This document shows, piece by piece, positions 139-5,547 of a stretch of 64,000 bases of DNA (positions are counted from its first letter, which is position 1; every line of letters begins with the position of its first letter). The translations under genes were made by a program, and so were the position numbers. Origin of the DNA: a virus; the IMG/VR virus record IMGVR_UViG_3300042197_001567, positions 1 to 64,000 of that record, one strand, 5' to 3'. The notes under the pieces are model-generated. The model searched no databases, was not told the origin of the DNA, and worked only from the letters and a program-made list of their open reading frames with translations.

Positions 139-161
139 AGGGACAATTCGTCCCTTTTTTT
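139..161 (+). terminator. Rho-independent terminator
   Basis: Stem AGGGAC (139-144) pairs with GTCCCT (150-155) around loop AATTC and is followed by seven T. It ends whatever plus-strand transcript enters from the left edge. The same GGGAC/GTCCC core recurs in the terminators near 22820 and 26495. Confidence 0.7.
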
Positions 162-828
162 ATATATTTTCTATTTTGATTTGTTCGTCTCTATTTACAA
201 GTTTTTTGTATAATTCGATATCTGATGACCACTCTTTCCCGGTCCAGAATTCAAACCCAGAAAAATTAGATTTATATTCACAACATTTTTCGTATCCGCC
301 CATCAAATAAACATAATTTGATTTATTTTCCTGGGCGATCTTACATTCAAACATTTGTGCAACATTACCCATAGATAATTTAGAATCTTCATAGTCCCAT
401 AAAAATTGATAAGCAACCATCTGGGAGTCAAAATATTTGTATATCGAAATTGCAATTAATTTGTCCGTCCAATATTCGATTACATTACAATCTAAAAAAG
501 TTTCCAATTTTATTTCCCTTTTGAATGAGTTGTGATTACAATATTTTTCATGTAATTTTTTATATTCACCCAGATTAAAAGAAATATCACCATTTTTTAT
601 TGTTATTTTATTAGATAATCTTTTTGTTGTTTTGGATGGTTTATATTCTGTTAGATTAATTCTAGTGCTCCTTTCATTGTACCATTTTTCTTTCCAGGGT
701 ATCCATCCTGAATTTAAAATTTCAGAAATATTATCATTATCTTCTAAAAGCCCATAAGCACAATTTACAACAACTTCATAATCACTAATTTTTCCAAAAC
801 CATTAATATGGTCAAATATAACTTTCAT
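160..828 (-). CDS. ATE/Bpt-like aminoacyl-tRNA-protein transferase
   Basis: The 222-residue protein follows the order of landmarks of arginyl/leucyl-tRNA-protein transferases (ATE_N/ATE_C). These are a GW near residue 41, a strand-and-PSK segment 'RINLTEYKPSKTTKRL' (about 56-71) like the family RIxVxxFxPSxSQRR, and an 'LGEYKKLHEKY' helix. Then come a GNAT-like core 'LIAISIYKYFDSQMVAYQF' and 'LSMGNVAQMFECKIAQ', then 'YVYLMGGYEKCCEYKSNF' matching YYYLGYYIxGCxKMxYKxxF, and a closing W. Family members add Arg or Leu from a tRNA to N-terminal acidic residues and so create N-degrons. The N-terminal Cys cluster of ATE is missing, so the enzyme is shorter and probably divergent. It has its own promoter-like GATAAATA (minus-strand TATTTATC) 3 nt before ATG, divergent from the 864 gene. 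The assignment is from recalled family motifs, not a search. Confidence 0.68.
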   Translation of the reverse strand: MKVIFDHINGFGKISDYEVVVNCAYGLLEDNDNISEILNSGWIPWKEKWYNERSTRINLTEYKPSKTTKRLSNKITIKNGDISFNLGEYKKLHEKYCNHNSFKREIKLETFLDCNVIEYWTDKLIAISIYKYFDSQMVAYQFLWDYEDSKLSMGNVAQMFECKIAQENKSNYVYLMGGYEKCCEYKSNFSGFEFWTGKEWSSDIELYKKLVNRDEQIKIENI

Positions 829-2690: not shown

Positions 2691-3476
2691 ATGGAAAGAG
2701 ATTTCGAATTATTGAAAAAGGTTTTATCGGTTCCTTCAAAAACTTACAAAGAAGATTTAATGATAGATTTTATAACAACATGGTTGGAAAAAAATAAAAT
2801 TCCTTTTTATGTTGATGAATTTTATAATATCTACGCAACAAAGAAAACAGATGAAAATATTGATTATTTTCCATGTGTTGTATCTCATACCGATACGGTT
2901 CATAATATAGATTCAATAAATGTTGTTGAGGAGATGTTGCCAAATGCTCAGAACGAAATTAAATTATCATTGAGAGCGTATAACAACGAAGGATCTCCAA
3001 CTGGAATTGGTGGTGATGATAAATGTGGTATTTTTGGATGTTTGGAATTATTGAAAGAACTTCCAAATCTAAAGGCGGCATTTTTTGTTGCGGAAGAAAC
3101 TGGATGTAAGGGTTCTTTTAATTCGGATCCTTCATTTTTTGACAACGTAGGTTATGCAATTCAATTTGATGCCCCTGAAAATAATATGATTTCAGAATTT
3201 CTTATGGGTAAACCAATGTTCAAACGAGATAGTGATTTTTTCACAATAGGATCTGAACTTCTTACAGAGCATTTCCCAAAAGATACCAAATATCACAAAC
3301 ATCCATATACGGACATCTATCCTTTGAATCAAAAATTTGGTTTATCTTGTTTTAACATATCAATTGGATATTATAATTATCATACCAGAAATGAATATGT
3401 TGTAGTTGAGGACACTTATAATGGGATCAAAGTAGGTAAACTTATGATAGAAAAATTAGGATATAATAAATATTAA
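2691..3476 (+). CDS. M20-like zinc metallopeptidase
   Basis: A 261-residue protein with the spaced metal ligands of the M20/M28/M42 co-catalytic zinc peptidase group: H66 and D68 in SHTDT, the bridging Asp in GIGGDDKCGI (109-110), catalytic and metal Glu pair E135-E136 in AEETGCKGS, D160 in QFDAP, and a final His (H231) in YNYHTRNE. The length is short for the family because the dimerisation 'lid' domain seems reduced. It is expected to trim peptides or di/tripeptides in the cytoplasm, with no signal peptide. Next to tmRNA and Clp genes it would fit the last step of peptide recycling, but the substrate is unknown. Confidence 0.75.
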   Translation: MERDFELLKKVLSVPSKTYKEDLMIDFITTWLEKNKIPFYVDEFYNIYATKKTDENIDYFPCVVSHTDTVHNIDSINVVEEMLPNAQNEIKLSLRAYNNEGSPTGIGGDDKCGIFGCLELLKELPNLKAAFFVAEETGCKGSFNSDPSFFDNVGYAIQFDAPENNMISEFLMGKPMFKRDSDFFTIGSELLTEHFPKDTKYHKHPYTDIYPLNQKFGLSCFNISIGYYNYHTRNEYVVVEDTYNGIKVGKLMIEKLGYNKY

Positions 3477-3501
3477 AAAAGGAGGTTTAATCCTCCTTTT
3501 T
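3475..3501. terminator. Bidirectional terminator between convergent genes
   Basis: AAAAAAGGAGG and CCTCCTTTTT flank the loop TTTAAT. The stop codon of the minus-strand ClpC-like gene lies in the loop and the plus-strand peptidase stop is just before the stem, so one hairpin ends both transcripts. Confidence 0.75.
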
Positions 3502-5547
3502 CTTTCTTACCCTTTTTTTAGGTTCCGGTTTAATTATCTCTTTAAGATCGACATATTCATCTTCACCATTTTTCTTAATAAATAAAATATATTCTTTTTC
3601 TTCCTCAAGTTCATTGGTTAGAATTTTTTCTGAAATCAAGTCTTCGATTTTGTCTTGAATTGCCCTTTTTATTGGTCTTGCACCATACTGATCATCAAAT
3701 CCAATTTTGGATATGTAATCAATAAGACAATCTTCATAACCAATATTATATTTCATGTTATTAACTCGAAGAATTAATTTGTCAACTTCCAATTTAACAA
3801 TCCTATTAATGTCGTCTTTTTGAAGTGAGTTAAAGATAACAACTTCATCAATTCTATTTAAAAATTCAGGTGCAAAAAACTTACTTAATTCTTTTCTCAA
3901 AACATCTCGTTTAAGTTCTTCTTCCAAGATTTCATTATTTGTTGACTTAAAACCAACACCGGTTCCAAAATCTTGTAATTTCTTAACTCCGATATTAGAA
4001 GTCATAATTATTAAACAATTTTTGAAATTAATTTTTCTACCCAGACCATCAGTCATATGACCATCGTCCAACATTTGAAGTAAAGTTGAAAATATGTCTT
4101 TATTTGCCTTTTCAATTTCGTCAAATAAAATTACAGAATATGGTTTATTTTTAACTTGTTCAGTTAATTGACCACCTTCATCGTGACCAACATATCCTGG
4201 AGGCGAACCGATTAATCTAGAAATTGTATGTTTTTCTTGGTATTCACTCATATCAACTCTAATAAGACTATCTTCACTTCCAAAAATTTCTTTTGCCAAT
4301 TGTTTTGCCAAAAATGTCTTACCTACACCAGTTGATCCCAAGAATATAAACGAACCAATGGGTCTGTTTGGATCTTTGATTCCAACTCGATTTCTTCTAA
4401 TTGCTTTCGAAATCTTCTTAACGGCTTCTGATTGACCAATAATTAATTTGTTTAAAGTATCTTCTAAACTAACTAATGAATTTTTTTCATCAAGATTTAT
4501 TTTTGACACCGGTATCTTTGTCATATTAGATACTACCTCATAAATTAAGTCTTCTGGTATTTCTCTTTTATTATTTTTTAAATCTTCTTCAAATTTATTT
4601 TTTTCAACTTCTAATTTTATATTAACAGTTTTTTCACGATCTCTCAATTCGGCGGCTAATTCATACTTTTGTTTTTTAATAACCTCGGCTTTTTCTTGTT
4701 TAATTGCAACAATTTCAGCCTTCAAAATTTCAATACTTTCTGGAAGTTTAATATCAATTTGCATTCTTGACCCAACCTCATCTAAAATATCGAAAGCTTT
4801 ATCTGGAAATTCTCTATCAGTAATATATCTATCTGCCAATTCTACAAACAACCATAATACCTCATCACTATAATGAACCATATGATGATTTTCATACTTA
4901 CCTTTACTTAATTTTAGGATTTCAAAAGTTTCACTTTTAGTTGAAGGGTCAACAATTATTTTTTGAAATCTTCTTTCTAACGCTCCGTCTTTTTCAAAAT
5001 GTTTTCTGTACTCGTCTAATGTTGTTGCCCCAATACATTGTATTTCACCCCTAGATAATGCCGGTTTGAATATGTTTGAAGCGTCTAATGAACCTGAACT
5101 ATTCCCAGCACCTACCATAGTGTGAATTTCATCGATAAAAATAATGATGTTAGGATTGGCCTGCAATTCTTCAATGATCACTTTCATCCTTTCTTCGAAT
5201 TGACCTCTATATTTTGTACCCGCAACAATAGAGTTCATTTCTAATGATACGATTCTTTTATCCGCCAAATTTTTTGGGCATTCCCCAGAATGAATCATCA
5301 TTGCAAGACCCTCAACAATTGCCGTTTTACCAGCTCCAGGTTCACCAATAATGATTGGGTTGTTTTTCTTTCTTCTAGATAAAATTTGGGCAATCCTTAT
5401 AATCTCTTTTTTTCTTCCAATTACAGGGTCTAATTTACCTTGTTCCGCAAGTTTATTAAGGTCTTTACTAAAATTATCTAACACAGGTGTTGTATTATCA
5501 CCCTTTTTTTTGTTTTTGTCTCCATCATCTGCGAATTCAATTGCCAT
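3487..5547 (-). CDS. ClpC-type AAA+ unfoldase lacking the N-domain
   Basis: A 686-residue double-ring AAA+ ATPase. Residues 20-65 match the ClpC linker leading into D1 (TPVLDNFSKDL...GKLDPVIGR). D1 has Walker A GEPGAGKT (68-75), Walker B DE (139-140) and sensor/arginine finger residues near 190-193. A UVR-type helical insert spans about 283-318 (ELAAELRDRE). D2 has Walker A GSTGVGKT (404-411), Walker B DE (476-477), the pore-type GYVG loop and a VGF tripeptide (531-533), the loop by which ClpC docks to ClpP. The two Clp-N repeats of bacterial ClpC, which bind adaptors, are absent, so only a 20-residue charged leader precedes the linker. It likely recruits host ClpP and changes substrate choice. 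It is divergent from the UVR/DnaK operon across a palindrome-bearing region. Confidence 0.9.
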   Translation of the reverse strand: MAIEFADDGDKNKKKGDNTTPVLDNFSKDLNKLAEQGKLDPVIGRKKEIIRIAQILSRRKKNNPIIIGEPGAGKTAIVEGLAMMIHSGECPKNLADKRIVSLEMNSIVAGTKYRGQFEERMKVIIEELQANPNIIIFIDEIHTMVGAGNSSGSLDASNIFKPALSRGEIQCIGATTLDEYRKHFEKDGALERRFQKIIVDPSTKSETFEILKLSKGKYENHHMVHYSDEVLWLFVELADRYITDREFPDKAFDILDEVGSRMQIDIKLPESIEILKAEIVAIKQEKAEVIKKQKYELAAELRDREKTVNIKLEVEKNKFEEDLKNNKREIPEDLIYEVVSNMTKIPVSKINLDEKNSLVSLEDTLNKLIIGQSEAVKKISKAIRRNRVGIKDPNRPIGSFIFLGSTGVGKTFLAKQLAKEIFGSEDSLIRVDMSEYQEKHTISRLIGSPPGYVGHDEGGQLTEQVKNKPYSVILFDEIEKANKDIFSTLLQMLDDGHMTDGLGRKINFKNCLIIMTSNIGVKKLQDFGTGVGFKSTNNEILEEELKRDVLRKELSKFFAPEFLNRIDEVVIFNSLQKDDINRIVKLEVDKLILRVNNMKYNIGYEDCLIDYISKIGFDDQYGARPIKRAIQDKIEDLISEKILTNELEEEKEYILFIKKNGEDEYVDLKEIIKPEPKKRVRKKKED

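Follow-up and report, generated by a model that had tools for sequence, protein, structure and literature searches.

Enzymes of the ATE type take the amino acid off a charged tRNA and put it on the N-terminus of a protein, and this mark usually leads to destruction of the protein. In ATE1 the charged tRNA binds to the GNAT side, with a basic helix making the contact, and its amino acid is transferred onto the protein N-terminus (PMC10115844). This helix touches the acceptor stem of the tRNA in ATE1 and its relatives. A metal-binding Cys cluster is important in that it stabilises ATE1, contacts the tRNA and helps to hold the substrate channel (PMC10115844). No phage-encoded ATE, phage N-terminal amino acid transferase or phage N-degron pathway was found in the limited body of openly accessible journal papers searched. 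The main text of the huge-phage paper mentions tmRNA, and Clp and such transferases are absent from it (PMC7162821).

The DNA analysed here (the window, 64,000 nt) starts at the first base of a 91,094-bp fragment, IMG/VR record IMGVR_UViG_3300042197_001567. The record comes from a tailed phage in which portal, head protease and major head protein are all encoded; the terminase is closest to those of a 484-kb uncultured phage and of Flavobacterium immuto phages (27-29%). An ORF at 160-828 on the negative strand, with an ATG start and a TAA stop, encodes 222 aa and is annotated from Pfam, AF2/Foldseek, conservation and dN/dS as an ATE_C-family protein, an ATE-like aminoacyl-tRNA transferase without the Cys cluster. 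Pfam ATE_C (PF04377) is matched at residues 98-194 (E=3e-9, 38 bits, cut-off 25), and NCBIfam arginyltransferase models are matched at residues 53-205 (E=3e-7 to 7e-4) with a score far short of the equivalog cut-off (30.6 vs 246 bits). In the PDB the best match by sequence is to yeast ATE1 (phmmer, 3e-5), which the profile of the phage family also finds, at 3e-6. Pfam gave no ATE_N match at E<=1, and no match to the LFTR (Aat), FemX or L-PGS sequence families was obtained from Pfam or NCBIfam. Judged by its sequence, the protein is a member of ATE_C, yet one without two defining marks of canonical ATE1 and Bpt, namely ATE_N with its Cys cluster and an equivalog-level score.

The original prediction had described an ATE-like protein encoded by a phage, with the ordered ATE motifs visible over the whole 222 residues and the N-terminal Cys cluster missing, and had added that use of the N-degron pathway would let the phage mark host proteins for Clp proteases. 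As a whole it is partly supported. The ORF and its family are confirmed, ATE_C scoring above its cut-off in the record of a tailed phage. The absence of the cluster was called correctly, since there is no ATE_N match and the canonical Cys columns of a Bpt-type protein hold no Cys in any of 20 aligned phage rows. The extent of the motifs needs trimming: by sequence they cover about residues 53-205, and residues 1-52 match through the fold only. A match over both ATE_N and ATE_C had been named as support, of which the ATE_C part was obtained and the ATE_N part was not.

Eukaryotic ATE1 is the best structural match, with ATE_C similarity at residues 93-191 and conserved core motifs, whereas the phage protein has 222 aa against about 500 and is without the N-terminal Cys/zinc cluster and the variable domain. 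Bpt, the bacterial aspartate/glutamate leucyl(arginyl)transferase (PRK01305 models), is of similar length and shares the NCBIfam arginyltransferase match, and in a search with the A1 family profile a canonical Bpt-type protein (L361) comes up at E=1.2e-9. Unlike Bpt, however, the phage protein has no PHCxxCxxC loop, lies far under the equivalog cut-offs, and carries a distinctive C-terminal motif, GGYExCCxYKxxxxGFEFWTGKEWSxDxxLY. Bacteroidia ATE_C proteins (L359-L390) have the same Pfam domain and are likewise without the canonical Cys cluster, so loss of the cluster does not single out the phage protein. They differ in that the 20 phage rows stand on their own side of a branch (SH-aLRT 94).

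The AlphaFold2 model of the window protein, built on the family alignment, has a pLDDT of 84.8 and a pTM of 0.83. In a Foldseek search against the PDB its first-ranked match is human ATE1 (E=1.4e-8, TM 0.66 on the query), followed by the yeast enzymes KlAte1/ScATE1 and then by L-PGS, FemX and LFTR, all of which are aminoacyl-tRNA-using enzymes. LFTR (Aat), FemX and L-PGS are akin to it in their GNAT-type fold and presumably in using charged tRNA, and match it less well in structure than ATE1 does. With no more than about 14% identity to solved ATE1 and a TM-score of 0.66, the protein is a distant relative of ATE1. A better match to another GNAT family, which would have refuted the prediction, did not appear; ATE1 ranks first and Pfam gives ATE_C.

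The window protein belongs to a conserved virus-borne ATE-like family of at least 70 IMG/VR loci. Scanning IMG/VR with three queries yielded three groups, the counts of which are lower bounds, a later genome search having added two loci missed by the patterns. Clade A (L001-L044 and L046; 49-70% identity) includes the window, clade B (L045, L062-L083) is found on contigs of up to 221 kb, and clade C (L047, L096-L099) is divergent. The ATE_C cut-off is passed by 21 of 31 related viral records, including most clade-A members. Two records hold more than one match: a 221-kb record of clade B (G015) has two different ATE copies about 150 kb apart (L071, L081; L355, L356), and a 206-kb record (G016) has two ATE matches. 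PHROGs holds no family for the window protein, about 50,000 deposited phage records gave no convincing match to the family, and deposited plasmid records gave no match. A pattern scan of GTDB genomes, based on the family alignment, confirmed no close cellular source.

Within the family dN/dS between close pairs is 0.06-0.15, i.e. purifying selection, and because dozens of homologues are also open across 222-230 residues the ORF is far beyond chance. Recoded stop codons in relatives, which split ORFs had suggested, were ruled out; all checked homologues are open, some with GTG starts. Among 20 representatives 30 columns are invariant, and invariant motifs occur both N-terminally (MKxxFDHIxGxGK) and C-terminally (GGYExCCxYKxxxxGFEFWTGKEWSxDxxLYxxLxxRDE). 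Residues W144, Y146, S152, G154, G178-Y179-E180, Y185 and G191-F192-E193 are invariant or near-invariant in the phage family. A conserved basic stretch near residues 63-72, KP(S/T)KTTK(K/R)LS, aligns with the basic segment that immediately follows the Cys loop in the canonical Bpt-type protein. The branch that sets the 20 phage rows apart comes from a quick tree, in which the window protein is nested among clade-A copies. The relation of phage to cellular proteins in this tree is unsure because of long branches; the nearest cellular row, from a Flavobacteriales MAG (L360), is truncated and long-branched, and its placement is unsure. Upstream of the ATE gene in 23 clade-A loci lies an ORF of 147-148 aa with a conserved HETMH (HExxH-like), which in L011 (1733-2176) overlaps the ATE start. 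It has no Pfam family despite its metalloprotease look, and its product could possibly be a metalloprotease creating new N-termini for ATE.

The ATE gene of the window sits between two phage RNAs. The 3' end of a GOLLD RNA (Rfam RF02032), cut by the contig end, lies at 1-103 on the positive strand; its score of 95.6 bits is below the gathering score of 150 because of this truncation, and six sister contigs (L181, L182, L183, L186, L213, L216) have full-length GOLLD in the corresponding position, with 288-329 bits. On the other side a phage tmRNA occupies 1107-1524 on the negative strand (Rfam RF00023, 75.5 bits against a cut-off of 47; missed by ARAGORN), with the in-frame tag GNVLNKMETLGLVRGSEVTVA, and the Rfam scan places a tmRNA at the same position, next to GOLLD, in six sister contigs. 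The tag, whose frame was read by eye and regex, is long and without the usual LAA-type end, and variants of it occur in 33 sister loci.

Between the ATE gene and the tmRNA, at 864-1073 on the positive strand, a 69-aa protein is encoded that is by profile match and alignment a remote homologue of the partner gene of ATE in crAss-like phages. The profile of the crAss-like small gene matches it at E=3.7e-4, and alignment gives 22-28% identity to the crAss-like small proteins. The small gene adjoins ATE in 41 of 47 viral loci. The two genes are divergent in the window and co-directional in crAss-like phages, where the small gene directly follows ATE; they seem to travel together despite this difference in orientation, since the 69-aa protein is the only match of the profile beyond the family's own phage (18,958 six-frame segments). 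Its structural model is poor (pLDDT 55.6), and a PDB search with the small partner protein returned chance matches only. The order common to the sisters, read directly in L186, is a homologue of the ORF at 1592, then tmRNA, then GOLLD. The two RNAs are about 150-620 bp apart in sisters and about 1 kb apart in the window, where the ATE and 69-aa genes lie inside the interval. Neither gene was found in 80 sister loci. The pair is therefore an accessory insertion, the sister huge phages keeping the interval without it. Beyond the tmRNA follow, both on the positive strand, a 356-aa protein without a Pfam family (1592-2662; syntenic in 56 of 80 sister loci) and an M20-like peptidase (2691-3476; phrog_4191 peptidase, E=2e-36; syntenic in 77 of 80).

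Next to these genes, at 3487-5547 on the negative strand, is a double-AAA Clp ATPase of 686 aa (Pfam, NCBIfam and PHROG) without an N-domain, about 150 N-terminal residues short of its ClpB/ClpC-type relatives. Its VGF loop, near residue 530, reads GVGF; ClpC-like relatives have PVGF or LGF and ClpB-like relatives a gap. From these sequence features the ATPase should be able to dock on ClpP, yet would take no ClpS via an N-domain. Copies of 66-96% identity occur in no fewer than 80 other viral contigs without ATE in the stretch examined, so the ATPase probably lies near ATE by coincidence. The ATPase is a core gene of the lineage and probably not part of an ATE module, and its adjacency was ruled out as proof of such a module, 80 syntenic phage loci carrying the ATPase without ATE. 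Divergent from it and adjoining it is a 124-aa protein with a UVR motif (PF02151; 5703-6077, positive strand). UVR motifs are found also in Clp partners such as McsA, and by analogy this protein may be a Clp partner.

ClpS itself (PF02617, over the cut-off) shares a record with ATE in G002, G006, G007, G033, G034 and a 21-kb contig, in the last of which ATE (L033) and ClpS (L289) are about 11 kb apart; the distance is about 10-14 kb where measured. The single record typed, G007, proves crAss-like in its terminase, portal and head protein, and the other ATE records share its ATE neighbourhood. The phage ClpS copies match PF02617 above the cut-off as well as E. coli ClpS in the PDB; at what we take to be the pocket positions, some copies differ. 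The phage ClpS family (L264-L343) is itself large, with members on no fewer than 115 viral contigs, a good many of which have no ATE. Among clade-A-type ATE records of more than 100 kb, ClpS is present in five of six, a biased figure as ClpS had led to the finding of two of the six; G005 (>100 kb) has ATE without ClpS, and G031 and G032 (both >100 kb) have ClpS without ATE. The 91-kb window record, which is possibly incomplete, gave no ClpS, and neither did 19 phages related to that of the window (71-321 kb) or the clade-B ATE records (149-221 kb). ClpS does occur in 635-642-kb uncultured phages that are distant cousins of the window phage. Co-occurrence of ATE and ClpS in crAss-like phages is confounded by shared ancestry; the co-encoded ClpS in phages with the same gene gives circumstantial support to the N-degron idea. 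ClpP was not found in 14 related records, so any degradation would use the ClpP of the host.

The crAss-like typing of G007 and the terminase matches of the window phage point to Bacteroidia as the likely hosts of ATE-carrying phages. Most Bacteroidia genomes have ClpS (328 of 395), few have ATE_C (33 of 395), and LFTR is present in 16 of 60, so the phage would supply a writer that its hosts mostly miss. The phage enzyme, on the ATE_C branch, would use its GNAT core and a presumed conserved basic helix to draw an amino acid from the charged tRNAs of the host and attach it at the free N-termini of selected proteins. The added residue would act as an N-degron, read by ClpS of the host or, in crAss-like phages with both genes, of the phage, and ClpS would hand the tagged protein to host ClpA/ClpC-ClpP. 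We give a probability of roughly 55% to this whole reading, in which the protein is an N-terminal transferase that depends on aminoacyl-tRNA and creates N-degrons for ClpS/Clp. Its parts differ in strength. The enzyme class is well supported, and the protein is very likely an aminoacyl-tRNA-dependent transferase. Its acceptor is probably a protein N-terminus. Degradation through ClpS/Clp stands at roughly even odds, and the co-encoded ClpS and host gene content make it the likeliest single purpose.

A changed acceptor side is expected in such a transferase, since the core and basic stretch are kept and the Cys site is lost, and the absence of ATE_N and the Cys cluster means that the acceptor could differ from that of ATE1. 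An aminoacyl-tRNA-dependent transferase could in this way act on something other than a degron substrate, for instance on virion or tail proteins, peptides, lipids or other small molecules, in the manner of FemX, MprF/L-PGS or peptide ligases. In structure FemX and L-PGS come next after ATE1, the lost Cys domain belongs to the acceptor side, the clade-A gene is close to tail-fibre-like and collagen-like genes, and ClpS was found neither in the window record nor in clade B. Nevertheless, ATE1 is the clear first structural match, Pfam gives ATE_C and not FemAB, and ClpS accompanies most of the large clade-A-type ATE records (with the bias given above), so that a non-degron acceptor appears rather unlikely.

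It is improbable by comparison that the resemblance to ATE is superficial and the protein a common GNAT acyl- or acetyltransferase. Acetyltransf_6 scores similarly or better in some distant members (L045, 21.6 bits vs 20.7 for ATE_C) and identity to solved ATE1 is low, but the ATE_C cut-off is passed by the window protein and most clade-A members, and the top structural matches are ATE1 and aminoacyl-tRNA enzymes, not CoA-dependent acetyltransferases. Slightly less probable again is a catalytically dead, ATE-like decoy or inhibitor that binds charged tRNA or N-termini and acts against host N-end tagging or translation. It would agree with loss of the Cys cluster; the GNAT-core motifs are, however, among the most conserved parts and under strong purifying selection, and an inhibitor of host ATE would seldom have a target, as so few Bacteroidia genomes have an ATE of their own. 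The position of the ATE gene at the very start of the contig could suggest an assembly artefact, a crAss-like gene fused to the end of a huge-phage contig. This is hardly credible given that huge-phage GOLLD RNA resumes beyond the ATE gene, that the same interval is bounded by GOLLD and tmRNA in sisters, that the orientation of ATE and small gene differs from the crAss-like arrangement, and that the composition and codon use of the ATE gene match the window.

Taken beyond the enzyme to its phages, the N-degron reading leads to a tentative proposal, which we hold to be somewhat doubtful as a whole: that Bacteroidota phages have their own N-degron pathway, in which an ATE-like writer and, in crAss-like phages, a phage ClpS feed the host Clp protease, and that the window huge phage has this writer too, set between a GOLLD and a tmRNA of its own and near its own Clp unfoldase without an N-domain. 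The conserved pair of ATE and small gene and the co-encoded ClpS make the proposal directly testable. If true, phages would label proteins for degradation with no need of ubiquitin and would thereby have a new route for removing host or defence proteins, and the family would offer a small enzyme without a Cys metal site for N-terminal labelling. Viruses may in this way steer the protein disposal of their hosts.
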